From positions 1 to 20,251 of the IMG/VR virus record IMGVR_UViG_3300021085_000282: a DNA stretch of 20,251 nt, one strand, 5' to 3'. This document shows, in pieces, positions 1 to 20,251 of this stretch. Position numbers and translations under genes: made by a program. Numbering within the stretch: the first letter of the stretch is position 1; every line of letters starts with the position of its first letter. The notes below the pieces were generated by a model. It did not search any database and was not told the origin of the DNA. It worked only from the letters and a program-made list of their open reading frames with translations. This DNA comes from a virus.

Positions 1-1294
1 AGTCTTCGCTGACCATGTATCAACAAACGCACTATATGGTTCTGGACACTACCCAAAGATACAGAAATATCCTGGCCTTCGTAGTAAGCGTCACTCCAAC
101 ACTAAGTCTGGATGGGATGCACACCGTTGGGTAAAGGAAGAGGGCAGAGGCCTTAACATTAACCCTGACGACCCAGTAGGCAACGAGAACGGCTACCACT
201 TCACATTAGATGACACTCGTGTCGTAGATGAGGCTTGGATACGTTTTAACGGCTACGAAGTCGGCTTACCACAGATAGAGCAGTTGTGGGTTCTTTGCAC
301 AGTATTGGACGAAGAGTGCATCATCCGTATGCAACTAAACCCATACGGCAGACAGTTCCCAGTAGCCTTCGGCGGTTTATATAATGACCAGCATAAGACA
401 TACAGCCAATCATTATATGACATACTATTGCCGATGCACGAGATTAGCACATGGCTACTACGCTCACGTATCGACAACGTACAGGCCGCTCTTAACAATT
501 TAATATTCGTAGACCCTACAGCAGTTAGTGTCCCCGACTTAATAGACCGAAACCCTTGGGGTGTAGTTCGTACTTTGCCAGGCACTAAGCCAGGCGACGG
601 CATATTCATAGCTGAAGTCCCCGACGTAACGAGAGGACACTGGAACGACATAGCCGCAATGTCCGACTTGAAGCAACGTGTCAGTGCCGCATCAGACGCT
701 CAACAAGGTATGCCAACAGCAGACGGTGTAAGAACTGCGACAGAAATACAACGACTTACGCAACTTGGGTCACAACGTCTAGGCGTTCTGGCTCGTGTAC
801 TATCAGCACAATCTGTACGTCCGCTTGTCAGAATGATGACAGCAAACTTACAGGACGCTCTTTCCTACGAAGGTTCTCTACGCATGATGGAAGGTCAAGC
901 ACCAGGCGAACTTAGTGGCATGGTCAATGATGGCTACATGGACTTCGACGTTTCTATGCTTCAGGGGGACATTGATTACTTGGTAGTGGATGGGACGCTC
1001 CCCGTAGAGCCAACAAGAAACGCAGAGACTTGGATGAATATGCTTCAAGTTATAGGCCAGTCTGGTCTTCAGATGGAGTACAAGACAGGCAAAGTCGTAG
1101 AAGAAGCTATCCGTGCAATGGGTGTCTCCGACGTAGACCAATTTAGAATTAGTAAAGAAGAAGCGTCACAGGGCATGACCCCTTCACAGCAGATGGCTAT
1201 GATGGAGAAAGCTCGTGGAGCAAACGTGATGCCAGAAGAACAGCTTCAGCGCGAAGTGGAAAAAGGGAACCTCAAACCAGCGGGAGCTAAATAA
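1..1294 (+). CDS. Portal protein, 5'-truncated by the window edge
   Basis: The reading frame is open from base 2 to the TAA at 1292-1294, giving 430 residues of a protein whose start lies upstream. It resembles portal (head-tail connector) proteins of short-tailed marine phages, which form the dodecameric ring through which DNA is packaged and ejected. Supporting features are the RVVDEAWIRFNGYEVGLPQ stretch, the QLNPYGRQFPVAFGGLYND segment followed by a long helix (SLYDILLPMHEISTWLLRSR), an NPWGVVRTLPG stretch, and a helical segment rich in Q and R (TATEIQRLTQLGSQRLGVLARVL) typical of the portal stem and wing. The C-terminal tail is charged and Met/Gln-rich. Portals of this kind usually have about 600-700 residues, so roughly a third is missing. 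The stop overlaps the next start as TAATG, suggesting translational coupling. The portal call is by sequence feel plus its place upstream of scaffold and coat. An internal ATG at 284 is not the real start. Confidence 0.85.
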   Translation, partial: VFADHVSTNALYGSGHYPKIQKYPGLRSKRHSNTKSGWDAHRWVKEEGRGLNINPDDPVGNENGYHFTLDDTRVVDEAWIRFNGYEVGLPQIEQLWVLCTVLDEECIIRMQLNPYGRQFPVAFGGLYNDQHKTYSQSLYDILLPMHEISTWLLRSRIDNVQAALNNLIFVDPTAVSVPDLIDRNPWGVVRTLPGTKPGDGIFIAEVPDVTRGHWNDIAAMSDLKQRVSAASDAQQGMPTADGVRTATEIQRLTQLGSQRLGVLARVLSAQSVRPLVRMMTANLQDALSYEGSLRMMEGQAPGELSGMVNDGYMDFDVSMLQGDIDYLVVDGTLPVEPTRNAETWMNMLQVIGQSGLQMEYKTGKVVEEAIRAMGVSDVDQFRISKEEASQGMTPSQQMAMMEKARGANVMPEEQLQREVEKGNLKPAGAK

Positions 1295-1584
1295 TGACAA
1301 CTCCATCACCAGAAGAATTAGAGACTGCCGCTAACTTCAGTGGTATCCAAAAAGATTACATCAGGGCTACAGTAAAGAGCCTAGTCACGGCTGAGATAAA
1401 CAATCTTCGTACAGAGATACTAAGAGCTATAGGTGACGCTAACACACCAACTTCTTCGGACAATGTTCTTTCATCCTTGAAGAAGAGGGTAGAAGATGTG
1501 GAAGCTCGCTACAACGAGGACGACAAGTACACCCTAACTCCTGCTAAATTGGTTATGTTGCAGAAGAAAATGGGGATTGAATAA
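1294..1584 (+). CDS. Small coiled-coil protein of unknown function
   Basis: This 96-residue protein begins on the ATG of a TAATG overlap with the portal gene and ends in another TAATG overlap with the next gene, so all three are probably translated together. I do not recognise a family. Residues about 20-75 look helical with heptad-like spacing (a VKSLVTAEINNLRTEILRAIG stretch, then LSSLKKRVEDVEARY), and the C-terminus is LTPAKLVMLQKKMGIE. There is no signal peptide or membrane segment. Its place between portal and fibre-type genes suggests a minor virion or assembly protein, but this is context only. Confidence 0.75.
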   Translation: MTTPSPEELETAANFSGIQKDYIRATVKSLVTAEINNLRTEILRAIGDANTPTSSDNVLSSLKKRVEDVEARYNEDDKYTLTPAKLVMLQKKMGIE

Positions 1585-2099
1585 TGGCGTTTACCCGTCC
1601 AACCAGTGAACAGATACAGTTTCGGTCAGCACTGACTGGAACTCATTCTTTGGACACTTACTTGGAAGCTACTGAAAAAGGTGGCTTCACCTTACCACAG
1701 CTTATGGGTAACTTGTTCACTTCCGCTGGTGAGCTAGACCCAACCGCTATTGAATTTAGAGTGGTACAGAACGGCGGCACCCCCGTATTCCAAGCCAGAT
1801 TTGGTCACTTCACCAGCCTAACAGCGGGCTGGGTAAGCACTAATCAAAACTTCTTCCACCAACGTGGAGCATATGTCGCTGGCACCGACTACGAAAGATT
1901 GGACATGGTATATGTAGGCGATAAGGCTTACATCTGCAAAACTCCCCACAACGCCCCAGCCGTACTAGATGGTACGTTCTGGCAGTTATTTTTTGATGGG
2001 GACGACGTGTTCAATGAAATAAGTCAATTTAGACTGAATAGTGAACCCCGCTTGGACTTGCTGGAAGAGTCGGTTTTATTAAACATAGACGTTCTTTAG
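1584..2099 (+). CDS. Fibre-adaptor-like structural protein with a chitin-binding-like module
   Basis: This 171-residue protein has two recognisable parts. Residues about 37-83 (from TLPQLMGNLFTSAG to TAGW) match, position by position, residues 38-81 of the tail fibre at 11009 (TVGELFGILFNEEG to EEEGW), an N-terminal module seen in fibres of T7-like marine phages. Residues about 90-136 have the layout of a CBM5/12-type carbohydrate-binding module: aromatic-Gly-x-Tyr, then YERLDMVYVGDKAYICK, then a closing FWQLF. The C-terminus is acidic and leucine-rich. The gene overlaps its upstream neighbour by one base and is followed by a strong SD for the large adhesin, so I infer that it links the adhesin to the virion or adds a sugar-binding surface. 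Function is inferred. Confidence 0.72.
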   Translation: MAFTRPTSEQIQFRSALTGTHSLDTYLEATEKGGFTLPQLMGNLFTSAGELDPTAIEFRVVQNGGTPVFQARFGHFTSLTAGWVSTNQNFFHQRGAYVAGTDYERLDMVYVGDKAYICKTPHNAPAVLDGTFWQLFFDGDDVFNEISQFRLNSEPRLDLLEESVLLNIDVL

Positions 2100-2104
2100 G
2101 AGGT
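2098..2104 (+). promoter_or_regulatory. Strong Shine-Dalgarno for the RCC1 adhesin gene
   Basis: AGGAGGT lies 8 nt before the ATG at 2113 and overlaps the TAG stop (2097-2099) of the upstream gene. It is close to a full anti-SD match, stronger than most in the window, and fixes the adhesin start at 2113. Confidence 0.75.
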
Positions 2105-2112
2105 AATTCAGG

Positions 2113-4710
2113 ATGTCAACACAATCGCTTAGAGAGCTTGTTGAAGCAATTAAAGGTCAGGGTAAAACTCTGGCAGGGGCGCAAGGCGCAACAGCCGCTA
2201 CCGCCCGTGACCTAGTTTATCTGTCCACATCAGTTGAAAGACTGTTCGGCGCAGACGCAATTTTAGAACTGATTGATAGTGCCGCAAGGCCTGTTGAACA
2301 CTTAGAGCTATCACTTGCTTCAAGCAACGCTCAGACGCTCACAGTCGATCAGGTAACTAAACAAGTTATTCGTGTAACGAACACTAGCCCAACTTTCTCG
2401 GCTACCGATTACACAATTACAATTCCAGAGCGGGGCGTAGCCTTTGTTGTGGACAACGAATTAACTATCCCAATTAAAGTAAAGACATCAACACAGACTA
2501 CTAACATTCCTAGCATCGCCGCTGGCGAGACAGGTTGGGTATTCTGTGACGGTAATGTCGTTGAGTTTGTTGTAGATGTTGCGGCTATTACCTCTGCGCT
2601 CACATCTGTAACACAAGACCCAGGTGACATGATCTACCGTTCTGGTGTCCCAGTAAACTCTTTCAAAGAGTACAACGTAGTAACTCAGAACTGGGGTTCA
2701 GGCTCACGGTTCTACTTTAGCGGTGAAAGCCGTGAATTTGGTTCTCCTTACAACAACGAGAAAACACCAAACATTACGCTGTACCCAAGTGTCACATACA
2801 AGTTTGACACATCAAACGACACCATGACTGGTCACACACTAAAGTTCTCCATCACACAAGATGGCACAAACAACAGTGGCGTAGAGCTTCTTGACCTTGA
2901 CGCTGACACCAACATTGATGTGACATACGTCGGCACACCAGGAACCGCTGGTGCTTACACTCAAGTAGTTGTTCCTGCTACTGGCTCACCAGCTACTATG
3001 TACTATTACTGTAGCAACCATGCAGGCATGGGTGGTGACGGTGTAGTAACTATCGCAACGGCCTCTGGTGTAACAAAACTTCCTCTCGGAAACGCTAACA
3101 ATGTTCTTTCTGTGGATGCTTTTGGTGAAAAGCCGAAATGGGTTCAGCCTAAAAGAATTAACGGAGTAAAGGGCGGCGTAGCTTGTTTGCCTTGGGATTA
3201 CACAGGTGCATGGTCAGACGGTGAAATAAAGCTGGCTAACCACATTACGGACGCAACCGTATTCCCTCACGCCGCAAACAAAGGCACATACGACAGTTCT
3301 AAAAACCAAATGCAGGGCTACCGTGGTGGTGGCTTTTTGTACTGGGATAATGGTTCTGTAAGACAGTCTGTTTTCGGATCAAACACCGAAGGAAGAACTG
3401 CTTGCGCCGCAGACAGCAACCACACCTTCAGCAGTGGTGCTTTAGCTAAATCATCTGACGGCAAGTACGGCTATCAAGCCTCTGATGGTTTTCCTAACCA
3501 GTATGCCGCAAAGCAAGTTTGCACAGCGCATAGTATGTCTTCTTACGTAGACACAGGCGGTAACGTCTGGATGTGTGGTCATGGCGACCAAGGTCAGATG
3601 GGCGATGGCGCACTTGTGGACAGAACAAATTGGACAAGGGCTAATATTCCGACATCTGCTGGTCGCGCAAGATACGTTCACTCCACCTCATCTGGTTCAG
3701 CGGCATCTATTAGCTGGTGTGCTTTGATGGAAAACGGCGACGTTTACTCTTGGGGTGCTGGCGTACATAGTCAGACAGGGCAAGGTAGCACAGCAAACGT
3801 GTCAACCCCGACTAAGATTAACGCACTTTCTAACATTCGTTCTATTACTGCTGGTGGCGGTGACGACGGAACTTGGGCCGCAATCGACGAGAGCAACAAC
3901 TTGTGGATGTGGGGACGTAACGGAGATGGGCAGTGTGGAAACGGTTCAACAACCGATATCTCTACTCCAGTCCAAATCAACGTGGCCTCTCAGCCTGTTG
4001 CCAAGGTAGTTATCCAAGGCTTCACTGACGAAGTACACACTCTGGTTATGACAGCTAATGGTCGTTGCTACGCGATGGGTTGTAATGCTGTTGGTCAGTT
4101 AGGAGATGGTTCTACTACTGCACGAAACACACCAACTCTAGTATCTAACCTCGGACTTAATGCTAACCAGTACGTTATTGATATCTGGGCAATGGCAGGA
4201 CGTTACGGATGCTCATTCTTCCTTACAGACAACGGTGACATGTACGCATGTGGCAAAAACAACCGTGGCATGTTGGGAGTAGGTGATACTTCTGATAAAG
4301 CCTCACCAACACTGATGGTAGATAACATTAAGTGGTGTAGTGAGATTTGTACTTCAGGTACATCTGACAACACTTCCTATTATTACAACCAAATTCTGTT
4401 CCTCTCACACGACAACCTCGCAGACCGTATGGCTCGTGCAAAAGGTACAGTTAGAAGTGCTGGTTACAGTAACAACGCAATGGGTAAAAGTGCGCGCCCG
4501 ACTAACGAAACCTCACCTCGACCTATCATTCACCAGATGCAGGGACAGATTAGGTTCATTGCTATGTGGGGCTATCACACAAGTAGCACCCAAGAAATGT
4601 GTGCTGGCTGTGTCGATGAAAACGGTAAGTTCTGGACATGGGGCTACTCATCAACGAACTCGCTAGGCGGTAATCCAGCTCAAAGCACGCCCGCACTCGT
4701 GAGGCATTAA
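2113..4710 (+). CDS. Large adhesin/tail-fibre protein: cupredoxin-like module plus RCC1 beta-propeller
   Basis: This 865-residue protein is probably a receptor-binding or decoration protein. An N-terminal part (1-195, helical then beta-rich) is followed by a cupredoxin-like module at about 200-315, with His241, then YYYCSNHAGMGG supplying Cys300, His303 and Met306. From about residue 480 to the end there are seven copies of the RCC1/ATS1 repeat core (G-x-hydrophobic-aromatic-x-x-G...G.(L/M)G): near 483 (GNVWMCGHGDQGQMG), 542 (GDVYSWGAG), 597 (LWMWGRNGDGQCG), 650 (GRCYAMGCNAVGQLG), 708 (GDMYACGKNNRGMLG), 778 (GTVRSAGYSNNAMG) and 838 (GKFWTWGYSS). Most are followed by the usual S/T-P segment. 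Seven copies fit a complete seven-bladed propeller. RCC1 folds in eukaryotes bind proteins or nucleosomes; in phage a surface-binding role is inferred. It follows the 171-residue adaptor-like gene by 13 nt. Confidence 0.8.
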   Translation: MSTQSLRELVEAIKGQGKTLAGAQGATAATARDLVYLSTSVERLFGADAILELIDSAARPVEHLELSLASSNAQTLTVDQVTKQVIRVTNTSPTFSATDYTITIPERGVAFVVDNELTIPIKVKTSTQTTNIPSIAAGETGWVFCDGNVVEFVVDVAAITSALTSVTQDPGDMIYRSGVPVNSFKEYNVVTQNWGSGSRFYFSGESREFGSPYNNEKTPNITLYPSVTYKFDTSNDTMTGHTLKFSITQDGTNNSGVELLDLDADTNIDVTYVGTPGTAGAYTQVVVPATGSPATMYYYCSNHAGMGGDGVVTIATASGVTKLPLGNANNVLSVDAFGEKPKWVQPKRINGVKGGVACLPWDYTGAWSDGEIKLANHITDATVFPHAANKGTYDSSKNQMQGYRGGGFLYWDNGSVRQSVFGSNTEGRTACAADSNHTFSSGALAKSSDGKYGYQASDGFPNQYAAKQVCTAHSMSSYVDTGGNVWMCGHGDQGQMGDGALVDRTNWTRANIPTSAGRARYVHSTSSGSAASISWCALMENGDVYSWGAGVHSQTGQGSTANVSTPTKINALSNIRSITAGGGDDGTWAAIDESNNLWMWGRNGDGQCGNGSTTDISTPVQINVASQPVAKVVIQGFTDEVHTLVMTANGRCYAMGCNAVGQLGDGSTTARNTPTLVSNLGLNANQYVIDIWAMAGRYGCSFFLTDNGDMYACGKNNRGMLGVGDTSDKASPTLMVDNIKWCSEICTSGTSDNTSYYYNQILFLSHDNLADRMARAKGTVRSAGYSNNAMGKSARPTNETSPRPIIHQMQGQIRFIAMWGYHTSSTQEMCAGCVDENGKFWTWGYSSTNSLGGNPAQSTPALVRH

Positions 4711-4723
4711 GGGAGAATAAATA

Positions 4724-5062
4724 ATGTCTGAAATGACTATAGACAATCTAAACCAACCAATGAAGTTGTATTCAGCCCAGAACATAACAATATCTGGTCA
4801 AGAATGGGACGCGGCAGATTACGCCTCTGTCTGTAACTTCAACGATACTTACTTCTTTGCCGTGTCTGACGCGGCGAAGGATGACTTTCTAGGTTGGATT
4901 GAAGACATGGAATTGGTAACGAACAACTATGTTTTGAATGAGTGTAAACAAAACTCACCGAAACTATTTGGCGTTGAAGACCTCGATGCTTATGCGGCAA
5001 AGCTAGGCATAGTAGTTGATGAAGACAAGTTTGAGGAAGACCGAGTAGCTTACGGAGCCTAA
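4724..5062 (+). CDS. Hypothetical acidic protein after the adhesin
   Basis: The 112-residue product starts at an ATG with GGGAG 8 nt upstream, just after the adhesin stop. I do not recognise its family. It is acidic and contains aromatic patches (WDAADYASVCNFNDTYFFAV), a helical middle (SDAAKDDFLGWIEDMELV) and a charged C-terminus (VVDEDKFEEDRVAYGA). It has no signal peptide or membrane segment. Its place directly after an adhesin gene is where phages often put a tail fibre chaperone or assembly factor, but nothing in the sequence proves that role. Confidence 0.72.
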   Translation: MSEMTIDNLNQPMKLYSAQNITISGQEWDAADYASVCNFNDTYFFAVSDAAKDDFLGWIEDMELVTNNYVLNECKQNSPKLFGVEDLDAYAAKLGIVVDEDKFEEDRVAYGA

Positions 5063-5064
5063 AG

Positions 5065-5316
5065 GTGAACCACAAACTCACGGATATCCAGCTAGAAGAA
5101 CTTCTCGAAAGAGCGGCTCATCGTGGTGCGGTCAGTGCTTTGAAGTCTGTTGGGCTTCAGGACGACGACGCACCTAACGACGTGCGCGACTTACGTTCCT
5201 TGATTGACGGATGGAGAAGTGTGAAGAAGTCCATTCTCCACACAGTCGTCAAGGCATTGGTAATCTTCTTGCTGGGCATCTTATCAATGGGAGCTTGGAC
5301 TAATTTCCATGACTAA
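5065..5316 (+). CDS. DUF6127-like single-span membrane protein
   Basis: The 83-residue protein starts at a GTG (5065) two bases after the upstream stop, with GGAG at 5054-5057. The N-terminal half has the pattern LEELLERAAHRGAVSAL, then VGLQDDDAPNDVRDLRSLIDGWRSVKKS, which I recognise as typical of DUF6127, a short family from alphaproteobacteria and their phages. Residues about 59-77 form one hydrophobic helix (HTVVKALVIFLLGILSMGAW), leaving a cytoplasmic-looking charged N-domain and a very short C-terminal tail. One membrane span in a phage late operon makes a holin or other lysis accessory conceivable, but DUF6127 has no established function and I see no lysin here. It overlaps the next gene by 8 nt. 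Confidence 0.8.
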   Translation: MNHKLTDIQLEELLERAAHRGAVSALKSVGLQDDDAPNDVRDLRSLIDGWRSVKKSILHTVVKALVIFLLGILSMGAWTNFHD

Positions 5317-5584
5317 AGCAGAAGAGAAAAGAATTTTAGAAGAGCTTATGGCTTCATCTGGCTGGGCATTACTCGAAAGCAAGATGAAGGATGAGATCGT
5401 CAACGCGGCATTTGCTATGGCTGAGAACGCTCGGCTAACAGTTGACGAGATGAACTTCCGAAGGGGGGCCATGTGGGCCGCTCGTCGGGTAATTGAACTG
5501 CCTACCAATATGAAAACACTGATTGATAATGACTTGCTGATGGATGCGGCAATAGCTGTAGAGGCAGAAGCAAACAAACAATAG
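5309..5584 (+). CDS. Hypothetical protein upstream of the scaffold
   Basis: This 91-residue, mostly helical protein starts inside the end of the DUF6127-like gene (8 nt overlap). The central sequence NFRRGAMWAARRVIELP resembles a segment of small phage proteins that often sit just before the head genes, but I cannot name a family or function. It has a charged N-terminus (MTKAEEKRILEELM) and an alanine-rich C-terminus (AAIAVEAEANKQ), with no membrane segment. Position suggests co-expression with head genes. Confidence 0.72.
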   Translation: MTKAEEKRILEELMASSGWALLESKMKDEIVNAAFAMAENARLTVDEMNFRRGAMWAARRVIELPTNMKTLIDNDLLMDAAIAVEAEANKQ

Positions 5585-5586
5585 AA

Positions 5587-5596
5587 CGCTACGGCT
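5587..5596 (+). repeat. CGCTACGGCT repeat, copy 1 (scaffold leader)
   Basis: An exact 10-mer in the 51 bp between the stop at 5584 and the scaffold start at 5636. With one flanking base on each side it is the same 12-mer (ACGCTACGGCTT) found in the capsid leader at 6788-6799. Role unknown; a regulatory or promoter element is possible. Confidence 0.6.
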
Positions 5597-5609
5597 TTCG
5601 TAAACAGTC

Positions 5610-5619
5610 CGCTACGGCT
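5610..5619 (+). repeat. CGCTACGGCT repeat, copy 2 (scaffold leader)
   Basis: A second exact copy 23 bases after the first, in the same short leader and just upstream of the scaffold SD (GAGGAG, about 5625). The two copies are about two helical turns apart. Confidence 0.6.
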
Positions 5620-5635
5620 GACAGAGGAGAAGAAG

Positions 5636-6730
5636 ATGGCTACCGAACAGGATAAGGCCTTTATCGACCAGATGGCTGGTCAACAACTGGGTGACGCAAA
5701 CGCTACGGCTCCAGCACAACCACAGCAACCAATGCCACAACAGGCACAAGCACCGCAACAGCCCCCAGCAGAGAAGGAAACTCCTACTACTGATCAGGAA
5801 AAAGCGGCGGCAAAAGTATCACCGAAGACCGAAGGCGATGCTTCTCTGGAAGAGAGCATTAAGATGTTTGAGGTTGATTTCGGAGATGAGAAAAGAAATC
5901 TATCTGAGGCTCAAGTACGAGAGACCTTCAACAGATATCGTGACTTAAATCACAAACATGCCAATGAGATTAAGCCTATGGAGCCTGCCATTAACTTGGT
6001 TAGGGATATCATGGAACGGGCTAAAGCAAATGGTAAGGACATCAACGGCGATGATATGGCCCAGTTCTTACAAGCGGCAACTCAGGCGTACATCAAAAAC
6101 CCTACAATGGGCGCACAAAAAGATAACACCCCTGATACTAAGGGTGAGCCAGTCGCAGGAAAACGAAACCTCGCAAGTGAGGTAGAGAACCAAATCACTC
6201 GTTGGGAAGAAGAGAACGCTATCTCTTTGCCACCTATGTACCGTGATGGTTTTGCTACCATACAAGCTATGCAACAGGAAAATGCACAGCTACGCGACAT
6301 GATGAACCAGTTCTTAGCTACTAGCCAGAACATCAATCAGGATGCGGCACAAGCGGCAGTTAGTGCTGAGAGCCAAGCGAACAATGCTTATCGTCAGCAA
6401 GCGGCTAACAACTTAAATATGGCTCAACAAAAATCTGGTTTACCAGATACCGACGAAGAAGACTTTTTTAATTTTGCATTTGAGCGGGGCTTCACTATTG
6501 AAGACTTCATTGACCGTGACCTAACAGAAAAAGTTATGGGTGACTTCGCGGCAGTAAAGAATAGCCCTGAAATGGATCGCCTACGTAATATGGCTCAACG
6601 TCGTCAGGCTTATACGGGTGCTATGTCATCCACGCCAGGCGCATCTGGAGAGATGGCACAGCCAAATCCTGACCAAGACTTTATGAATAGCGTTGCTGAA
6701 AAGGCTATGCGTAAGCGCAACATGATATAA
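5636..6730 (+). CDS. Capsid assembly scaffolding protein
   Basis: The 364-residue product lies between portal and major capsid genes, the usual scaffold position. Its composition is typical of scaffolds: a disordered Pro/Gln-rich N-terminal part (about 24-50, with runs such as QPQQPMPQQAQAPQQPP), an acidic middle (SLEESIKMFEVDFGDEKRNLSE), long predicted helices (residues about 95-160 and 185-260), and a basic C-terminus (EKAMRKRNMI) like the coat-binding tails of T7/P22-type scaffolds. Scaffolds coassemble with coat protein into a procapsid and then leave. Scaffold families diverge strongly, so the call rests on position, length and composition rather than on a signature. A GAGGAG SD precedes the ATG, and the leader holds two copies of a 10-mer also found before the capsid gene. 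A hairpin follows the stop. Confidence 0.78.
   Translation: MATEQDKAFIDQMAGQQLGDANATAPAQPQQPMPQQAQAPQQPPAEKETPTTDQEKAAAKVSPKTEGDASLEESIKMFEVDFGDEKRNLSEAQVRETFNRYRDLNHKHANEIKPMEPAINLVRDIMERAKANGKDINGDDMAQFLQAATQAYIKNPTMGAQKDNTPDTKGEPVAGKRNLASEVENQITRWEEENAISLPPMYRDGFATIQAMQQENAQLRDMMNQFLATSQNINQDAAQAAVSAESQANNAYRQQAANNLNMAQQKSGLPDTDEEDFFNFAFERGFTIEDFIDRDLTEKVMGDFAAVKNSPEMDRLRNMAQRRQAYTGAMSSTPGASGEMAQPNPDQDFMNSVAEKAMRKRNMI
5701..5710 (+). repeat. CGCTACGGCT repeat, copy 3 (inside the scaffold gene)
   Basis: An exact copy inside codons for A-N-A-T-A near the scaffold N-terminus. It may be chance, or a leftover of local duplication around the gene start. Confidence 0.45.
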
Positions 6731-6737
6731 TTCTTAA

Positions 6738-6763
6738 AAGAGGGACGACATTATGTCCCTCTT
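6738..6763 (+). terminator. Hairpin after the scaffold gene
   Basis: A perfect 9 bp stem (AAGAGGGAC / GTCCCTCTT) with an 8-base loop lies 8 nt after the scaffold stop. It is followed by ATAATTTAATAATAAAG rather than a clean T-run, so it may be a weak terminator or a processing/stability hairpin that separates scaffold from capsid transcripts. Confidence 0.6.
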
Positions 6764-6788
6764 ATAATTTAATAATAAAGTACAGTGA

Positions 6789-6798
6789 CGCTACGGCT
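6789..6798 (+). repeat. CGCTACGGCT repeat, copy 4 (capsid leader)
   Basis: A fourth exact copy in the leader of the major capsid gene, 122 bases before its start. It shares the flanking bases of copy 1, making a 12-mer. Confidence 0.6.
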
Positions 6799-6899
6799 TC
6801 ACAAAGCTGTGCAAAAATAAGGGTAAAAACAAACTATTAAGCTGTACGCTAAACTGTTTGTAGTGGCCCGCCAAATCTTAACGTAACCTTTAGTGTCAT

Positions 6900-6903
6900 G
6901 GAG
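6900..6903 (+). promoter_or_regulatory. Shine-Dalgarno deciding the capsid start
   Basis: GGAG lies 7 nt before the ATG at 6911. An in-frame GTG at 6893 would add six residues (MSWRYI) but the SD lies inside that extension, so 6911 is the better start. Confidence 0.75.
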
Positions 6904-6910
6904 ATATATT

Positions 6911-8089
6911 ATGACCGCAATTACAGGACTACGTGGGACTGGTCAGTTCACTACCGACTTCCGTCCTACGAATTATCGGGAGCTATTCACGCTCCTAGAA
7001 CCAAACGGCACTGCGCCACTTCAGGCTCTCCTTTCTATGGCTGGCTCTGAAAGCACAGATGACCCTAAATACAACCACTTCCGTGATGAAATGCCAGATC
7101 GGACACTGACTGTTGATGGTGCTATTGCATCTTCTTCAACAGGTACAGTTGTTGTAGACAACGACGACGACGAAGCGTTCGTAGTCTCAGGCGCGATCTT
7201 GCAGAACCAGGCAACTGGTGAAATCATGCACGCAACAGCGGATGCAAACTTAGGTACAAACACACTGACTGTTACTCGTAACATCGGTGGCACAGCACAC
7301 AATATTGGTGATGGCGACGTACTTGTGATTGCTGGCTTTGCGGATCAGGAAGGTGGCTCTAGCCCAACAGCTATTAGCTTCGATCCAACTCTTGATCACA
7401 ACTTTACGCAAATCTTCAAGACTGCCGTACAAGTAACAGGCACATTGCAGAACACATACTTGCGTACAGGTGACAAAGAGCAAGAGCAACTGACTAAGGC
7501 ACTAAAGATGCACATGTCAGATATCGAAAGAGCAATGTTCTTTGGTCAGCGTCACGAAGCAAACGCTTCAACTGCATCACCAACAAGGTACACTGGCGGT
7601 CTACAGAACATGATCTCCAATGTAACTGACGGTGCTTCATACGGTGCGTCGGCAAACACTATCACTGAGAAAGAGTTTGATCGGCTATTGATTGAAGACA
7701 TCTTTGCATACGGTTCATCTGAAAAGGTGGCTTTCTGTGGCGCAAGGGTGATTTCAAACCTTATGGAAATCGGCAAGAACCGCTGGCAACCAACTAGCAT
7801 TGATAATGCTTATGGCGTTTCATTGACAAGGTACACAACATACGCTGGCGATTTGCTCGTGTATATGCACCCAATGTTCCGTCAGACTGGTATGACAGAA
7901 GAGATGTTTGTACTCGACATGGGCGAACTAAAGTATCGTTACATGCAGGGTCGTGACACTCAGCTTATCCGTGACATCCAGACACCAGACTTCGACGGTG
8001 TTAAGCACATGTACCAGACAGAGTGTGGTCTTGAGATGACACAAGCTAAAGTGCATCACCGCATCAAAGGCTGGAACAAAGTCACATAA
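6911..8089 (+). CDS. Major capsid protein, SU10/DUF5309-like
   Basis: The 392-residue protein would form the icosahedral shell (HK97 fold). The N-terminal part has RPTNYRELFTLLEPNGTAPLQALL, followed by a beta-rich segment at about 65-145 (TVVVDNDDDEAFVVSG, TNTLTVTRNIGGTAHNIGDGDVLVIAG), which fits the extended E-loop or insertion of this group. Next comes a spine-helix-like region ending in SDIERAMFFGQRHE, then RYTGGLQNMISNV, a combination I associate with the SU10-like capsid family (DUF5309). The C-terminal part (LLVYMHPMF, FVLDMGELKYRYM, TECGLEMTQAKVHHRIKGW) also matches that family's ending. No protease is seen in the window and no N-terminal delta domain is obvious, so a separate scaffold is consistent. 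The gene has its own leader and is bracketed by two hairpins, suggesting separate high expression. Confidence 0.88.
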   Translation: MTAITGLRGTGQFTTDFRPTNYRELFTLLEPNGTAPLQALLSMAGSESTDDPKYNHFRDEMPDRTLTVDGAIASSSTGTVVVDNDDDEAFVVSGAILQNQATGEIMHATADANLGTNTLTVTRNIGGTAHNIGDGDVLVIAGFADQEGGSSPTAISFDPTLDHNFTQIFKTAVQVTGTLQNTYLRTGDKEQEQLTKALKMHMSDIERAMFFGQRHEANASTASPTRYTGGLQNMISNVTDGASYGASANTITEKEFDRLLIEDIFAYGSSEKVAFCGARVISNLMEIGKNRWQPTSIDNAYGVSLTRYTTYAGDLLVYMHPMFRQTGMTEEMFVLDMGELKYRYMQGRDTQLIRDIQTPDFDGVKHMYQTECGLEMTQAKVHHRIKGWNKVT

Positions 8090-8163: not shown

Positions 8164-8457
8164 ATGGCAATTATCAAAGAAAAGACTAAGGTGGCTGGAG
8201 TAGCGGCGGCTAAAAAAGCGGCGGCACAGAAGGCAGTCCCAGCCCCAAAAAATGAACAGCGTAAAGAAAATAAAATCTACATCTCCTCACAAGAGGAAGT
8301 AGTGAAGATGGAAGTAGTTCTTCGTGGTGAACGGTTCAAATCATATTGGGACAGTGACCGTGAGTATCTGTTTTTCTCCATATCTCCAAAGTACGTAGAG
8401 GCATTTGAAATGCACACGTTCTTTGTCAGTGGCAAATTTATTGATTTTGAGGAGTAA
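8164..8457 (+). CDS. Small basic protein after the capsid gene
   Basis: The 97-residue protein starts at an ATG with GGGAG 6 nt upstream, just after the capsid terminator. Residues 1-40 are Ala/Lys-rich and probably disordered (KVAGVAAAKKAAAQKAV). Residues about 43-97 look like a small beta domain (VVKMEVVLRGERFKSYWDSDREYLFFSI, ending FFVSGKFIDFEE). Family not recognised. Its position suggests a head decoration or head-completion protein. The Ala-Ala codons are all GCG-GCN, an example of the window-wide avoidance of GCWGC. Confidence 0.75.
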   Translation: MAIIKEKTKVAGVAAAKKAAAQKAVPAPKNEQRKENKIYISSQEEVVKMEVVLRGERFKSYWDSDREYLFFSISPKYVEAFEMHTFFVSGKFIDFEE

Positions 8458-11008: not shown

Positions 11009-12850
11009 ATGGCACGATTAAGACAACAGCACCCGCAAAACTACGTAAATAGCGGGAACATCCACACGGATTTTGAAAACCTAATCCGTTACGTAAACTC
11101 AGCGGAGCTTGGGAACAAGACTGTAGGTGAGCTATTCGGCATACTCTTCAATGAAGAAGGTGTGTTCCGAGGCCCAGTCCAAATGCGTCTTGATGCTCAA
11201 AGCGGTATCCAATACAGAATTGGTCAGTACAATAGTGAGGAAGAGGGATGGGCAACCATCGCAACTCTGGCATCACTACGTGGGCCTGCTGGTGCATCCG
11301 TTGGTAACGTGGAAGGCCCGTTCTTCTTTAACAGGCAAGACATTGAAATCGGTGGGCCAGTAGCAAGTGTCACGGTGTCCGCACCTGGTTCGGCTTATAC
11401 AGCGGCACCGACGGTAACATTTAGTTCGCCCGACGATCCTAACGGTGTAGTAGCGGCTGGAACAGCCACGCTCGGTGGGACTAACGGCGACGAAGTTGTC
11501 TCTGTTTCTGTGACCACTGCTGGAACTGGCTACTCATCTCCACCTACGGTTACTATCTCAGGTGGAAACGGTGCTGGTGCCACAGCAACATCGACGCTTG
11601 GTTCACCAGTCTCAGTTGTGAACTATTCTTTTGATCCATCTACAACAGACATTGTTGTTTACAGAAACGGTATTCTGCTTCACGGACTTACATCTGCTGG
11701 TACGGCGGCTCAGTATACTTACAGCACAACAAACAACACTGTCTCAGTAACAAACGTATCTCCAGCTTTGGCTAACGGAGACAAGATAAGCGTTTACTCT
11801 GTTCGTTCTCAGGCTGTTACAAACTTCCGTAGAGTTGATAACGAGATTAGCGGAGCCACCACACTTATTTCATTCGTTCACACTACAGACGAGAAGATAC
11901 TTGTCTGGAGAAACGGTGTTCTACAAGAAGAAGGTGGTAATGCTGACTACTTAGCATCTGCTACTGCGAACACAATCACATTCCTTGATCCTAACAACCC
12001 ATTGGGCGTAGGTGACAAGGTTACAGTTCTTACTGTTGAGAACCAGTCATTGAAAACTGTTGCTGGACTTATGTTCGAGGACGAGTACACAGATGCAAAT
12101 GGCTTTATTAACTGGGCTAAGATATCTGTAGCTGATAACCAGATACCTCAGAGTAAGGTTTCAAGCCTTGCTACGTCGTTGGCTGGTAAAGCTAACAACA
12201 CTAACTCTCTTACTGCTCCATTAAGTCCTGCAACTGGAGACCTATGGTTAGACATATCACAGGTTCCAGCAGTTCTGAAATTCTATGATGGTACTCAGTG
12301 GTTAGAGACATCACCTGAGAGTTCATTGCCAACATTCGTTCAGTCTAACGCAAGTCAGTACGTCCGTGTGAACGGCACAGGTACATCGCTTGAATATGGA
12401 GACATCGACTTCTCGGCTCTCGTACCTAAGACATACATGGGTGCGGCGAACGGTGTGGCTACACTTGATACATCTGGTAAGCTACCACCTAACCAGTTGC
12501 CTGAGATTTTCTCTACTATCAGTCTTCCATTCTTCTCAGTATGGGAGAACAGTTCTGCGTCGGTTACTAACAAAACATACTTTGTTACACGTATGTGGAA
12601 GCAGACTATCCGTATTGACGGGCTAAGTTTCAAGTTGGCTGGCGGTTCTTGCACCATTCAGCTTGCAGTAGACGGCTCGACTATTGGTAGTACCTACTCA
12701 GTTTCATCTACAGCGCAGTCTCTTTCATTGACTACTATCATTGAAATCGACGCTACCACTTCTGGACGTAGACTTGAGCTAGTTGTTACCAATGCTTCAT
12801 CTGCAACATCATTAGAGGTTGGGATCGCGGCGGCAACTGTCAACGTATAG
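11009..12850 (+). CDS. Tail fibre protein with modular beta repeats
   Basis: The 613-residue protein starts immediately after the nozzle stop. Residues 38-81 are the N-terminal module shared with the 171-residue protein at 1584, presumably the virion-binding part, followed by a short collagen-like RGPAGAS. Two Tyr-Pro repeat units follow (117-141 and 164-186: VxSVTVxxxGxxYxxxPTVTxS). After them come two longer beta modules, about 203-268 and 283-343, each with (V/L)V(Y/W)RNG(I/V)L and a G-DK-(I/V)-V end. Then a linker (IPQSKVSSLATSLAGKANN, and a DLWLDISQVPAVLKFYDGTQW segment) leads to a C-terminal beta domain (about 500-613) likely to be the distal receptor-binding tip. No enzyme motif is visible. 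The repeats point to growth by internal duplication. Confidence 0.8.
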   Translation: MARLRQQHPQNYVNSGNIHTDFENLIRYVNSAELGNKTVGELFGILFNEEGVFRGPVQMRLDAQSGIQYRIGQYNSEEEGWATIATLASLRGPAGASVGNVEGPFFFNRQDIEIGGPVASVTVSAPGSAYTAAPTVTFSSPDDPNGVVAAGTATLGGTNGDEVVSVSVTTAGTGYSSPPTVTISGGNGAGATATSTLGSPVSVVNYSFDPSTTDIVVYRNGILLHGLTSAGTAAQYTYSTTNNTVSVTNVSPALANGDKISVYSVRSQAVTNFRRVDNEISGATTLISFVHTTDEKILVWRNGVLQEEGGNADYLASATANTITFLDPNNPLGVGDKVTVLTVENQSLKTVAGLMFEDEYTDANGFINWAKISVADNQIPQSKVSSLATSLAGKANNTNSLTAPLSPATGDLWLDISQVPAVLKFYDGTQWLETSPESSLPTFVQSNASQYVRVNGTGTSLEYGDIDFSALVPKTYMGAANGVATLDTSGKLPPNQLPEIFSTISLPFFSVWENSSASVTNKTYFVTRMWKQTIRIDGLSFKLAGGSCTIQLAVDGSTIGSTYSVSSTAQSLSLTTIIEIDATTSGRRLELVVTNASSATSLEVGIAAATVNV

Positions 12851-12859: not shown

Positions 12860-14074
12860 ATGTCTGACAGAAAATTTACAACTCAGAGCGGGCAACCTCG
12901 GTTAGAAGATAGCTACGGCGTTCGAGAGTTTCTCGATGATTATGGCCCGATGTCTATCTTGACACGGCTCACGCAAGGCCACGACGAAGAGATACCATCA
13001 ATGCCATCTGGCCTTGGTGGTCTTGGCTTTGACGCTCTTGGCAGTGACAGAGACGGCAATAGTAGTGGCAGAATAAAAGACCTAAAAGAAGCAGAGCAAA
13101 AAGAATTTGAAGAGATACGTAAACGTCGTGTCCGTGAGAAGCTACAGGATGATACTGGGCTTGGTGCTATGATGGATGCTGAGGCTCTCAAGGGTCACTA
13201 CGGAGCTATGAGGGCTGGTGACGACACACTTAGTTATACTCAGACTGGTGAGCGTGTCATACCAAAGCCAGTTCTTGATAAGTTCCCAGACCTTGCTATG
13301 GCTGTTCAACAAGCCACAGCATCAGTTGGCCTAGACCCTGACAGATTTGAAGTCGGCAACGACGGTGGTGTCTACAACCCAGACACAGGGGTACAAGAGT
13401 TCAACCATGCTTGGTGGCATTTAGACTTTGACAAGATCATAGACAACGTAGGCGAGTACGGTAGCAAGCTCTATGACAGTGCCAAAGATAGCGTGACAAA
13501 ATCATTCAATGAATTTGCTGAAGACCCACTCGGTAATGACCTTGTTCAATCAAGTCTAGCTGGTATTGGTTCTGGTGTAGCGGCAAAGCTCGCTGGTGCT
13601 AATAACGAGCAAGCAATCCAAACAGCATTAGGCGGGGCGGCTGGGTATGGTCTCGGCCCTAAAGACGCTACAATGTCTCAGAAGTTGTTAGGTGCTGGTA
13701 TGGGTGGTTATGGTGCGTATAATGCTTATACCCCGCCACCACCACCACTTCCTTCAACAACGCCTTCAAATCCTTTGCCTTCAGATTACGCGCAAATACT
13801 TGCCTCACAGCCAGTTTCGTACGGAGACAAGAACGAGCAAGCTAACTTATCAATGACACTCCCACAGTTGGCCCCTCCCGCCGCTGTGGGGGCTGTCTCC
13901 AAGCCTGATGGTGTCAACTACTTAGAAGAAGTGGACACTAGGGATGGTGGCAAATCTTACGTTGACGTGGGGGATAAAGTGTACGGCGGTAGCTTCGGCT
14001 CCAACATATCTTCTGGTAGTCGTCGTGCTGATTTAGACAAAGGATTTGGGCAAAAGGTTCTTTACATTGATTAG
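12860..14074 (+). CDS. Internal virion protein with the phage INP-x-TG motif
   Basis: This 404-residue protein follows the fibre gene after a GGGGAG SD. Residues 120-181 carry a paired motif found in many phage internal or tape-measure-associated proteins: a DTLSYTQTGERVIPKPVL segment (compare the usual GD-x-x-x-H-x-x-x-GE-x-V-x-P) and then VGNDGGVYNPDTGVQEF (compare INP-x-TG-x-x-EF). I recognise the motif but its function is not established. A charged coiled-coil-like stretch is at 72-97, a Gly/Ala-rich segment at 230-290 could be membrane-active, and a PPPPPLP linker at 292-298 leads to a disordered C-terminal part. The protein ends GFGQKVLYID. It overlaps the following acetyltransferase gene by 8 nt. 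Confidence 0.7.
   Translation: MSDRKFTTQSGQPRLEDSYGVREFLDDYGPMSILTRLTQGHDEEIPSMPSGLGGLGFDALGSDRDGNSSGRIKDLKEAEQKEFEEIRKRRVREKLQDDTGLGAMMDAEALKGHYGAMRAGDDTLSYTQTGERVIPKPVLDKFPDLAMAVQQATASVGLDPDRFEVGNDGGVYNPDTGVQEFNHAWWHLDFDKIIDNVGEYGSKLYDSAKDSVTKSFNEFAEDPLGNDLVQSSLAGIGSGVAAKLAGANNEQAIQTALGGAAGYGLGPKDATMSQKLLGAGMGGYGAYNAYTPPPPPLPSTTPSNPLPSDYAQILASQPVSYGDKNEQANLSMTLPQLAPPAAVGAVSKPDGVNYLEEVDTRDGGKSYVDVGDKVYGGSFGSNISSGSRRADLDKGFGQKVLYID
14052..14057 (+). promoter_or_regulatory. SD-like AAAAGG supporting a TTG start
   Basis: AAAAGG lies 9 nt before a TTG at 14067. The alternative ATG at 14079 has no SD, and a TTG at 14046 has AAAGG only 2 nt away. The 14067 start gives MIRHMREEDV, the usual GNAT opening. 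Confidence 0.5.
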
Positions 14075-14525
14075 ACATATGAGGGAAGAAGATGTGGCAC
14101 ATTGTGTTGATTTGGGCGAGCAGTTCCACTCGTCATCATACTTCGCGTTCGCGCCATACAACAAAGATAAAGTATACAACTGGGCCATGCGCGGACTGGA
14201 GAGATCAGACAGGCTTATGCTCGTTGCGGAAGACCAACCCTCTCAAGAGATATTTGGTTATTTTGTGGCGAACATTTCTACATTTTACTTCAGTGATGCA
14301 CTTGTCTCAGAAGAAGAGCAAATGTTCTTGCACCCAGAAAAACGAGGCGGGCCTACTGCTGTGAAGTTTATGAAGATATGGGAGAAGTGGGCAAAAGAAA
14401 ACAATGCTTCGATGCTTTACTTTACCGCAGGGGCGATAGACAGAGGCAACAAGTTTGACGGGTTTATGAAGAAGCTAGGGTATCATCCAACTGGCCCTGC
14501 TTATAGAAAGTGTGTAGGAGAGTAG
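14067..14525 (+). CDS. GNAT-family N-acetyltransferase
   Basis: The 152-residue product has the GNAT layout: beta-1 IRHMREEDVAHCVDL at the start, LMLVAEDQPSQEIFGYFVANIS (beta-2 to beta-4), then motif A at about 83-110 (EEQMFLHPEKRGGPTAVKFM) with the pyrophosphate-binding loop RGGPTA at 93-98 in the place of the usual R/Q-x-x-G-x-G/A, then LYFTAG and F..KLGYH of motif B at about 131-140. Such enzymes move an acetyl group from acetyl-CoA to an amine; the target is unknown. Start: TTG at 14067 is preferred because it keeps beta-1 whole and has an SD; an ATG at 14079 is possible. It is embedded between internal virion protein genes, with which it is probably co-translated, so it may modify a virion or host protein late in infection (inference). 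Confidence 0.8.
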   Translation: MIRHMREEDVAHCVDLGEQFHSSSYFAFAPYNKDKVYNWAMRGLERSDRLMLVAEDQPSQEIFGYFVANISTFYFSDALVSEEEQMFLHPEKRGGPTAVKFMKIWEKWAKENNASMLYFTAGAIDRGNKFDGFMKKLGYHPTGPAYRKCVGE

Positions 14526-14526
14526 T

Positions 14527-16314
14527 ATGTGTGGCCCAAGCAACGACAGCAACGATGACGGTGTAGACGATACTACTGGTAAGAACGTATTCGGCGGCAC
14601 GAACACAAAGATGACCGACGAAGAAAGTGCGGCGTTTGATCAAGAGATAAACGACTTCTTTTCTGATGAAGAGAGAAACTACGATGCCGAAGAACAAGGC
14701 TTGTTCAGCGATGACGCTCAAGCTAGTAACAGCGGCAACAACTCCAACAGTAGTTGGCAGAGCGGTGACGACGTGCCTTCTGTTCCTGTGCAAGACAGGA
14801 ATGGTAATAAGTTCGTTGACGGCAAAAAAGTCAGTGACGCAGTATACGATCAGGCTGTAAAGGCTCGTTCAGATTTTGTAGACCTAGCATCAGACCCAAA
14901 AAAGTCAAAGGCTGGAGAGGACGCTTTCATAGCAGAGACTATGAGGAGCAAAGGCTTCAACCCTGCTGATAATTCAGACGACGCTAACAAAGCCCGTGAC
15001 GAAAGTGTGATGGAGTTAGCCAACTACGATCAAACTGTAGCGGCAAACGAAGCCGCCGCTAAAGACTTAACGTCGAAAGGGCAAGTTAAATCAAACGAAC
15101 AACTGACGCTAGAGATGTTAGCAAGTGGTGGTGTTCCAAACGTCGGCAAGGATCAGCAGATTGCCGCCGCTAAACAACTCGGCGCACAGTTAAGTAAAGG
15201 TCTTTACTCTACCTCTGGGTTTATTACAGATAACATTAAAGACTTCCAGATGTACGGTGGCGATAGTACACAAAGAGAAGTGATGGAAGCAATCGCAAGT
15301 GGGTACAACAACCAAACTGGAACATCAGGTATTGATGGTTTAGGTTCAACAATCAAAGGTCTGACTAGCGGGTTGGGTGGCAACAGAATGGAAGTTGACC
15401 GCAACGGTAATGTAACATTACAAACACAAGGACAGCACATAGGTGAAGGTGCGGCGAACATACTTGGCAGTTTTGCCAGTGCCTACGTGGGCGGTGTCCC
15501 TGGTATGCTCGCGGGTGGTTTGAATGTAAGTGCCAGCACTCCTTTTACGCAAGATGGTTATAATAAGTTCAAGACAGGTCAGACTGACGCGGATATAAAC
15601 CTCAACTATAATGTTGGTGATACACTCGCAAACGCAGTAGGAGGCAACCTTTCCACAACAGCAGGCAAGTTTGCTTACAACGCCACTAAAAATACGGCAC
15701 TCGCTCAACTCGCGGCGGCGGGTACTAATCAATTAGCATCAACGGCGGCAAATAATCTTTTGGGTGACGATGCCAATATGAACTTAGGCAACATAGGAAA
15801 CACTTCTGGTGGCCCTGCGGGCATGGGTGTAACACCTAAAGGTAATATGACATCAAACGTGCAGTCAGACATAAAACTGGAAGGGTCAACTGCTGGCGGT
15901 GGGGGCATGGATATAGATGTAACAGACCCAGCCAACTTCAACGTCAAGGACGGCACTGCCACTAAAAAAGGAACGATGAGCGTCGGTGACAATAACAAAG
16001 GCAACAACCAGAGTAACGACGATAACGGTGGCGGCGCGGCACTAGCTAAGATGAAGTCTACTATAGGCGATGGCGGCGACGTAAACACTCTTCTCGATGG
16101 TAACTTGGGACTTACTAACCCATTGGGTGACGGTAATAAAAAGCTACCCGCTGGCGTAACGATGCTAAGTGGTATGGATAGTGGTTTTGGTAACTACTTA
16201 ACCAAGGGGAAGAATAGAGACTTCGGTTCTGCTACATTTAGAACAGCCAGTAGAAACGAAGTGAATAGAAACAAACGTCGCTCAGGTATTGGCAACGGAA
16301 TATTATTCGGATAG
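14527..16314 (+). CDS. Low-complexity internal virion protein with an MCG N-terminus
   Basis: The 595-residue protein starts one base after the acetyltransferase stop, with GGAG 6 nt upstream. It is rich in Gly, Asn, Asp and Ser. Residues 1-90 are acidic and probably disordered; the middle has helical stretches (AANEAAAKDLTSKG, IAAAKQLGAQLSKGL). Around residue 310-330 a Gly/Ala segment (NILGSFASAYVGGVPGMLAGG) could insert into membranes, as expected of ejection proteins. The C-terminus turns basic (FRTASRNEVNRNKRRSGIG). I do not recognise a family. Its beginning, MCGPSNDSND, is like that of the next gene (MCGSPSNDNG), and both start contexts are alike, so the two may be paralogous or carry a shared N-terminal signal. 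Neighbouring genes suggest an internal or ejected virion protein. Confidence 0.7.
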   Translation: MCGPSNDSNDDGVDDTTGKNVFGGTNTKMTDEESAAFDQEINDFFSDEERNYDAEEQGLFSDDAQASNSGNNSNSSWQSGDDVPSVPVQDRNGNKFVDGKKVSDAVYDQAVKARSDFVDLASDPKKSKAGEDAFIAETMRSKGFNPADNSDDANKARDESVMELANYDQTVAANEAAAKDLTSKGQVKSNEQLTLEMLASGGVPNVGKDQQIAAAKQLGAQLSKGLYSTSGFITDNIKDFQMYGGDSTQREVMEAIASGYNNQTGTSGIDGLGSTIKGLTSGLGGNRMEVDRNGNVTLQTQGQHIGEGAANILGSFASAYVGGVPGMLAGGLNVSASTPFTQDGYNKFKTGQTDADINLNYNVGDTLANAVGGNLSTTAGKFAYNATKNTALAQLAAAGTNQLASTAANNLLGDDANMNLGNIGNTSGGPAGMGVTPKGNMTSNVQSDIKLEGSTAGGGGMDIDVTDPANFNVKDGTATKKGTMSVGDNNKGNNQSNDDNGGGAALAKMKSTIGDGGDVNTLLDGNLGLTNPLGDGNKKLPAGVTMLSGMDSGFGNYLTKGKNRDFGSATFRTASRNEVNRNKRRSGIGNGILFG

Positions 16315-16317
16315 GAG
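16314..16317 (+). promoter_or_regulatory. Shine-Dalgarno deciding the start at 16325
   Basis: GGAG overlaps the upstream stop (16312-16314) and sits 7 nt before the ATG at 16325. An in-frame TTG at 16289 would overlap the upstream gene by 26 nt and lacks an SD, so 16325 is preferred. Confidence 0.7.
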
Positions 16318-16324
16318 ACATAAA

Positions 16325-17188: not shown

Positions 17189-17198
17189 GGGTGTCTAA

Positions 17199-18110: not shown

Positions 18111-18112
18111 CA

Positions 18113-20251
18113 ATGGCTCGTTTCTCATCCGCTTACTTCGATGCTTATAATAAGCAAGAAGATCGCATTGATAAAAAGCGCAAGGACAACAGAACCGCCT
18201 TTATGAACTACCGAAAGGCCAAGGCTGAGTTAGGTGAGGACGTAACGGCTGAAGACTTGCAGTCTTATAGACAGAGCCTAGCAGGCAATGATGCTTTCTT
18301 TCTGCGCGACATGGGGCCAGGTCAGATGCTTGGCGACTTAGCCAAGCGTACCAACGAGCGTGCATTAGAAACTCGTAGGGCAGAGCAAGCCAACGAAGTA
18401 ACCCGTAAGGATAAAGAGCTACAGATATTTGATACCTTCGTCGGTCAAAATTTAGACGGCGACCCTAGCAACCCTGCTGGTGCAAAACTTAATTTTATGA
18501 AGAACTTCGTAGGCCAAGAAGAACTTGGTGAGAGACTGTGGACACAGAACTCAAGTCGTTATGGTGAAACCATTCTGTCTTCTAGGGCTGAAGCGGCAGA
18601 CAGCTACGTAGACCTACGTCTTAAAGACATAAGAACTGTAGCTGACGCGGAAAAAATAATGAACGCTGATAACCTTCCAGAATGGAAGAAGAACAGCATA
18701 AAAGAAATAATAAACAACAGGCAGTCTAGCGATTTAACTACTGCTACTGCTTCTGCTGAGACCCTTGTTAATAACTACAAGGGTACTGACATGCTTCACT
18801 TAAAAGATGAGAACTTAGAAAATGAAGCAACATCCATAATAACGCAGGCAAAAGTTAATTTAGACAGAACATCACAAGAGTATAAAGAACTTCACGCTAG
18901 TATTGTAGCAAGACTTAAAATGAGACAGAGTAACGCTGTAACAGCAGACACCCTTGCAAGGGAAGAGCAGTTCGGTAAAGACGCTCTTGCCGCTGGTAGT
19001 GAATTTGTTGTGGCGTTTGATGCGCTTGGGTACGATGACCAAAAGGTATTGGACGCTTATAATCTTATGCGTAGGAACAATGGTCTTAGTGAAGCAACGA
19101 GCATAGAAGACCCGACGTTCAAGAAGTTTATCAGCGCGGCGGCAAGCCGTGAGGGTATTCAATATGAAGCGGACTATCAAAACGCACTCAAAGCCGCCGA
19201 TACTAAAGGTCAGACTGCATTGGTAGCGGCTCAAGCTAAAATGAATAGTATGGCAAAGACTGGCTTCTTTGAAAAAGACAAGCTGGGCTTTGGTGTGTTC
19301 TCTTCATTGGTAGCCACCCACGTTCCAGCCTTTGATCCAACTCAAATTATGAAAAGACTGGAAGAAGAGTACGGTAAAGACGTAATCAATGGTGCTTTCA
19401 CCCCAAAAGCCGCACAAGAGATGACGAACTTTCTTGTATCACAAGGACTTTTAGTAAGTAACGCAGAGTATGTTGAGGCAATTAAAGAAGTGAACATGTC
19501 TTCCATGAAGATTAAACCTGGCTCTGACATAGAAATAGTGGTTCAGGAAGAGGTTCTTGACTTCAAGGCTAAAATAGAAAGTGCCATCAAGTCTTCAAAC
19601 TTCAAGTTACAGATTGGTGCCAGTGAAGAAGAGATATCAGAACAGTTGCAGAAAATTAAAGATGCGGCTATGGAACAAATGCGAGAAGATGTGCGCCTTA
19701 TGGTGAACGCAAGAGGTGCTTTTGCTGAAGGCCCGAATGGCAACATCGACGCAATGATGAAGAAGTATGAAGCAGAGATTAACAAGCAACTTAACGAATT
19801 AGAGATATCTTCTTTCAAGCCTCAAATTGTTCCTGACGGCGCACTAAAGATAATGGGCAATGGCAATTACCAAGCATTAGCTGGCTCTGGAACTTTGAAG
19901 GATAACACTGGCAACGCTCTAGTTCCTGGTAATTTATATTCCGTAGTTGATGGCGACATAATACCAGCAGACAGTAACAGTGCTGTCTTGCCAGCACCTA
20001 CTGTAAATCTGGGTCTAGCAGGGCAACGCGCAAGCCAAGACTTACTAGATATGGGAGCAGACATTGCTAACCTAACGATAGCCAACGGCAGAAACCAAGC
20101 AGTAGCGGGCATCAGACCTAACCCCGCATACGGTATAGTGCAAGGTGGTTCATTCGATAGCGTAAGAGAATGGCAAGCAAGTATTATTAAACAAATGGCA
20201 GAGGCTTACAGAAAACAAGGTGTTCAGTTACGTGGTAGACCAATGACCGAC
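18113..20251 (+). CDS. Large internal virion / ejection protein, 3'-truncated by the window edge
   Basis: The frame from the ATG at 18113 is open to the end of the window: 713 residues with no stop, so the protein is longer. It begins MARFSSAYFDAYNKQEDRID and is highly charged and helical, with repeated coiled-coil-like stretches (NERALETRRAEQANEVTRKD, KIESAIKSSNFKLQ, EEEISEQLQKIKDAAMEQMR). A less helical segment (about 560-640; KIMGNGNYQALAGSGTLKD, NALVPGNLYSVVDGDIIP) lies near the visible end. Length, location and helical nature fit T7 gp15/gp16-type ejection proteins. No transglycosylase motif is seen in the visible part, but it may lie beyond the edge. No strong SD precedes the start, which sits two bases after the upstream stop, so coupling is likely. 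Confidence 0.75.
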   Translation, partial: MARFSSAYFDAYNKQEDRIDKKRKDNRTAFMNYRKAKAELGEDVTAEDLQSYRQSLAGNDAFFLRDMGPGQMLGDLAKRTNERALETRRAEQANEVTRKDKELQIFDTFVGQNLDGDPSNPAGAKLNFMKNFVGQEELGERLWTQNSSRYGETILSSRAEAADSYVDLRLKDIRTVADAEKIMNADNLPEWKKNSIKEIINNRQSSDLTTATASAETLVNNYKGTDMLHLKDENLENEATSIITQAKVNLDRTSQEYKELHASIVARLKMRQSNAVTADTLAREEQFGKDALAAGSEFVVAFDALGYDDQKVLDAYNLMRRNNGLSEATSIEDPTFKKFISAAASREGIQYEADYQNALKAADTKGQTALVAAQAKMNSMAKTGFFEKDKLGFGVFSSLVATHVPAFDPTQIMKRLEEEYGKDVINGAFTPKAAQEMTNFLVSQGLLVSNAEYVEAIKEVNMSSMKIKPGSDIEIVVQEEVLDFKAKIESAIKSSNFKLQIGASEEEISEQLQKIKDAAMEQMREDVRLMVNARGAFAEGPNGNIDAMMKKYEAEINKQLNELEISSFKPQIVPDGALKIMGNGNYQALAGSGTLKDNTGNALVPGNLYSVVDGDIIPADSNSAVLPAPTVNLGLAGQRASQDLLDMGADIANLTIANGRNQAVAGIRPNPAYGIVQGGSFDSVREWQASIIKQMAEAYRKQGVQLRGRPMTD

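Follow-up and report, generated by a model that had tools for sequence, protein, structure and literature searches.

Restriction-site avoidance is textbook knowledge and is usually viewed as a silent change at the DNA level. In phages, the elimination of Type II sites, with GCWGC among the reduced sites, is described by Rusinov et al. 2018 (PMC6286503), and about half of the pelagiphages are depleted in GANTC, with the depletion clustering by phylogeny (PMC9516812). The phages closest to the DNA considered here are those of the CRP-810 type, a family with 251 uncultured genomes, most of which bear an integrase; CRP-810 itself infects Roseobacter CHUG and integrates into its host, and Roseobacter, SAR11, and Sphingomonadaceae have been named as hosts of the type through isolation, prophage, or prediction (PMC11288001).

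The stretch analyzed here (the window) is a whole virus record of 20,251 bp (positions 1 to 20251) and is probably a piece of a larger genome, that of a temperate marine podovirus of the CRP-810 type. Homologs of the portal and capsid proteins of this type are present in conserved gene order, and it is this sequence similarity that places the window in the family. Its closest isolate is Roseobacter phage CRP-810, with 71% identity in the C-terminal part of the portal protein (SU10 portal family; positions 284 to 1294, plus strand) and 62% in the major capsid protein (positions 6893 to 8089, plus strand), on which our family tree is based. By similarity, the window also codes on the plus strand for a tail fiber-like protein with RCC1 beta-propeller repeats (positions 2113 to 4710) and a GNAT acetyltransferase comparable to CRP-810 gp40 (positions 14046 to 14525), besides other structural genes. 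The integrase and CobS/CobT genes would fall outside a 20-kb fragment and are found in a close 60-kb relative (G001). In the latter, positions 1587 to 5857 hold a CobT-like vWA and CobS-like AAA/MoxR gene pair that recurs in most near-complete relatives; annotated as a cobaltochelatase, it could alternatively be a MoxR-vWA chaperone pair with another function.

The initial annotation of the window had reported a complete absence of GCWGC, and this is exact: there is no GCAGC and no GCTGC in the 20,251 bp. Its by-eye figure of roughly 180 GCAG or GCTG tetramers agrees with our recount (85 plus 95), and the near relatives GCGGC (52) and GCCGC (23; together 75) are as common as it had indicated. 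The first codon of an Ala-Ala pair, which it had described as never GCA or GCT, is GCG in 44 and GCC in 23 of the 67 pairs, and the two stretches that it had cited read as described (GCG-GCG in positions 8200 to 8225 and GCC-GCC-GCT in positions 15046 to 15060, plus strand). Across the window as a whole, 70% of the Ala codons are GCA or GCT; the pressure on codon choice at Ala-Ala pairs is local and exact. A Markov model predicts 33 GCWGC sites. A shuffle in which synonymous codons are exchanged inside each gene, with every protein and its own codon usage retained, was the test that the annotation had named in advance; it gives about 51 sites, nowhere near zero (means of 27.6 for GCAGC and 23.7 for GCTGC, and minima of 14 and 13 in 1,000 shuffles), along with a compensating excess of GCGGC (47 observed versus 19) and GCCGC (20 versus 10). 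The annotation's view that the pattern is too specific for plain codon bias is thus borne out, bias being rejected by a shuffle that preserves proteins and codons alike. In the 60-kb relative, the same shuffle gives 140 GCWGC sites where none are observed.

The annotation was incomplete in that it had overlooked the other missing words. Against codon-shuffle expectations of 26, 18.5, and 39, the window has no CCGG, no GGWCC, and only two GANTC sites (positions 2067 to 2071 and 10439 to 10443); further, 46 of the 64 palindromic hexamers are missing versus 4.4 expected, and their total is 55 versus 226. Selection against a GCWGC restriction target, as it had proposed, is accordingly supported, as one among several tens of targets.

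When about 60 related contigs were set on the capsid tree, every clade was found to have its own missing set of short words, with many changes along the tree. CCGG or CCWGG is missing in all but a few relatives, and the clades lack varying mixtures of GCWGC, GANTC, GGWCC, GATC, GGCC, GCGC, GTAC, CATG, ACGT, and TCGA. The observed over expected counts in near-complete genomes reach 0/121 for GCWGC and 0/115 for CCGG in G001, 0/127 for CCWGG in G002, 0/200 for CATG in G021, and 0/127 for GATC in G016. The isolate CRP-810 shows 0/100 for CCWGG, 1/120 for GCWGC (codon-shuffle minimum of 122), and 0/57 for GGWCC. The window and G028, whose capsid proteins are 95% identical, share 78.5% of their aligned bases (21.5% differ), and both stand at zero for GCWGC, CCGG, and GGWCC; since these zeros have been held despite near-saturated silent sites, the selection must be continuing. 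With the exception of G022, the family members longer than 40 kb have 2 to 8 purged short words and 24 to 42 absent hexamers, versus 0 to 3 and 2 to 24 in reference phages, among which HTVC010P is exceptional in having 37 absent hexamers. None of the short motifs is purged in G022 (53.8 kb, near-complete), which may be a natural control whose host is without Type II systems. We discarded host assignment through prophages in genome contigs, as only four MAG contigs had phage sequence and their hosts were unreliable.

GANTC is the motif of the CcrM methyltransferase of Alphaproteobacteria, and some of these losses could in principle reflect regulation that depends on methylation rather than cleavage. 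The known depletion of GANTC in pelagiphages (PMC9516812) is in keeping with such a role. However, it would apply to GANTC alone, and GCWGC, GGWCC, CCGG, GTAC, and the hexamers behave in the same way. For these latter words we know of no role in regulatory methylation, and we consider this reading unlikely, even though it survives better than the other alternatives to restriction.

Self-methylation as the means of phage protection was rejected, given that there are almost no methyltransferases among the relatives. No C5 methyltransferase was found in the 47 relatives searched and no D12 (Dam-type) enzyme in the 37 searched, and N6/N4-type enzymes were found in 2 of 37, one of them broken; these two (G015, positions 10243 to 11436, and the broken version in G012, positions 32862 to 33260) are the only candidates for self-modification in the set. 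A C5 methyltransferase is encoded at positions 14406 to 15221 of a MAG contig (G048:C23; PBNR01000023) that bears a related capsid gene, and avoidance on this contig is only partial (14 CCGG and 21 GANTC sites in 60 kb).

The absences of CCGG and CCWGG are mutually exclusive: 0 of 54 records lack both. The genetic code accounts for this exclusion because Pro-Gly is CCN-GGN, which is either CCWGG or contains CCGG. By enumeration, Pro-Gly forces CCNGG, Gly-Pro forces GGNCC, Ala-Ala forces GCNGC, Thr-Val forces ACNGT, Val-Thr forces GTNAC, and Trp-Pro forces GGCC; GANTC and CGNCG can be escaped by means of the additional Ser and Arg codons, and these are the only motifs for which both halves have been lost in the family. 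CTNAG, another motif that can be escaped within the code, is absent from the pelagiphage HTVC010P (0 of 63 expected). Sign tests for the either/or pattern had only four independent pairs on supported branches, were nonsignificant, and were replaced by a test at the codon level. In 46 Pro-Gly columns common to both camps, the Pro codon ends in C or G (CCS) in all 126 cases from CCWGG-free genomes and in A or T (CCW) in all 112 cases from CCGG-free genomes. Gly-Pro and Ala-Ala show a similar W/S split, and G014, G027, and G041 have dropped GCSGC and not GCWGC.

The same exclusion would be seen if phage-encoded sequence-specific endonucleases destroyed host DNA and spared their own genome, with CCGG and CCWGG corresponding to two alleles of one enzyme, and conserved PD-(D/E)XK nucleases are indeed present in these phages. 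Neither gene presence nor gene trees follow the motif states, however: the only matches between a phage gene and a motif state come from comparisons based on two genomes, and every gene tree requires more than one change for CCGG or CCWGG. We therefore rejected nuclease alleles as the source of this either/or pattern, for which the Pro-Gly codons are fully sufficient. Moreover, the loss of tens of hexamers would require tens of nucleases, and we regard this alternative as very unlikely.

The purged words are mostly palindromes, and hexamer palindromes number 65 versus 199 in the whole-window count, as would also be seen if palindromes were avoided generally for structural or regulatory reasons or through a mutational bias. 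Yet the palindromic hexamers are distributed bimodally, with one group of about 31 close to zero and another of 17 close to expectation (e.g., AAGCTT at 0/68 as opposed to TTGCAA at 57/71, TAGCTA at 52/63, and TACGTA at 46/71), and the purged sets vary among clades. Further, GCWGC is purged while GCSGC is enriched. The 288 words that are one pair off a palindrome provide an independent test of Type II specificity, for which we used a limited list of known enzyme specificities. In the clade of the window, six such words are purged, and four of them belong to the 24 words of known degenerate Type II sites on this list (P = 0.0004); in five other clades the same test gives P values from 4e-6 to 2e-4, with XhoII, BanI, AcyI, CfrI, and SfeI words. 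Those purged in the window clade include CCCGAG, GAGCAC, GAGCCC, GGGCAC, and GAATGC; the first is an AvaI word, the next three are SduI words (GDGCHC), and the last is the asymmetric site of BsmI. The purged one-pair-off hexamers are thus mostly hetero members of degenerate Type II sites. GCTNAGC (0/58 expected), CCTNAGG (0/28), GACNNNGTC (3/43), and ACCTGC (3/62) are likewise gone or nearly so. Matched by sequence in this way, the avoided words can be identified as Type II recognition sequences, degenerate and asymmetric ones included, and because of this coincidence we attribute the pattern to restriction and not to palindromes in general, an alternative that we see as extremely improbable. 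Weakest of all is an artefact of assembly, sampling, or codon bias, which might be suspected as the window is a metagenomic contig but is scarcely credible given that the isolate CRP-810 is likewise purged, as are the cultured Cobavirinae for CCNGG. To our knowledge, no enzyme can be named for the purged words ACSGT, CACGTA/TACGTG, and CAGCTC/GAGCTG, which are missing in the clades of G004 and G014, in those of G016/17 and G003, and in several clades, respectively; restriction specificities not yet described may lie behind them.

Loss of the dipeptides themselves is also observed. In GGCC-free genomes, Trp-Pro occurs once versus 40.7 expected (P = 2.5e-7 with related records counted singly), the single instance belonging to a genome with one GGCC, whereas the Pro-Trp control occurs 39 times versus the same expectation. 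In four members of the Cobavirinae, which form an independent subfamily of roseobacter phages in culture, CCGG and CCWGG are both nearly gone (0 and 1 in SIO1, 0 and 2 in ICBM1, 0 and 1 in ICBM2, and 2 and 2 in P12053L), and Pro-Gly is down to 1, 2, 0, and 3 occurrences in the same order, versus 27 to 32 expected. It is the most depleted of the 400 dipeptides in each of the four, and rarer than in any of 300 within-protein shuffles; SIO1, P12053L, and ICBM1 are closely related, so that these represent about two independent lineages and not four. At Pro-Gly columns of other phages aligned to these four, Pro-Gly is retained in 0 of 63 cases, as against 44 of 117 for Gly-Pro. Very probably, to judge from these sequences, site avoidance has rewritten proteins.

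Taking these findings together, we infer enzymes, hosts, and agent alike; the best explanation, which we consider highly likely, is that many Type II restriction systems of the hosts have selected for the loss of their recognition words. Site loss would then be the phages' visible protection, their own DNA methyltransferases being almost lacking. Purging is bounded by the code: at CCNGG, GGNCC, and GCNGC a lineage can give up the W half or the S half but not both, and Trp-Pro forces GGCC. A lineage that faces both halves has to stay open to attack at one of them or else eliminate the dipeptide from its proteins. With somewhat less assurance, we think it likely that restriction evasion meets a hard limit in the genetic code, that complementary camps (CCGG-free and CCWGG-free, GGCC-free and GGWCC-free, GCWGC-free and GCSGC-free) would partition host range, and that doubly pressed lineages rewrite their proteins. 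Against selection by host restriction stand the several tens of systems implied, a very large number for one lineage, as well as the enzyme-less words (ACSGT, CAGCTC, and CACGTA) and the unpurged G022. The temperate lifestyle also counts against it, because temperate phages reportedly avoid sites less, according to one survey (PMC6286503). If this account is correct, the purge, which is almost complete for tens of targets in a marine family both abundant and temperate, preserves a legible history of which restriction systems each lineage has met, and it marks the end of what silent change can do. N-centered specificities (CCNGG, GGNCC, and GCNGC), or paired complementary ones, would favor bacteria, as the phage could answer only through protein change. 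Testable predictions concern host range, the methylomes that hosts should have as judged from phage sequence alone, and the restriction systems that phages would have most difficulty evading.

In a text search, the paper on the CRP-810-type family (PMC11288001) nowhere mentions restriction. The limit set by the code appears to be new as far as our literature search shows, that search having found no paper on a dipeptide limit, a weak negative with subscription journals outside its coverage. The pelagiphage depletion (PMC9516812) concerns a single motif, and GANTC is one of many here. Phage T7 is similar in the near-elimination of short Type II targets (GATC at 6/141 and CCWGG at 2/56) but differs in that only two motifs are purged and 19 hexamers are absent. 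Pro-Gly is low in T7 too, being its most depleted dipeptide (7 versus 30), consistent with its lack of CCWGG. As far as the available part of Rusinov et al. 2018 (PMC6286503) goes, non-avoidance of GCNGC is recorded there with no coding explanation. The palindromic orthodox Type II sites eliminated in that survey resemble those lost here; what sets the present family apart is the loss of 2 to 8 short motifs and about 30 to 45 hexamers at once, in temperate phages, with clade-specific sets and an either/or choice fixed by the code.
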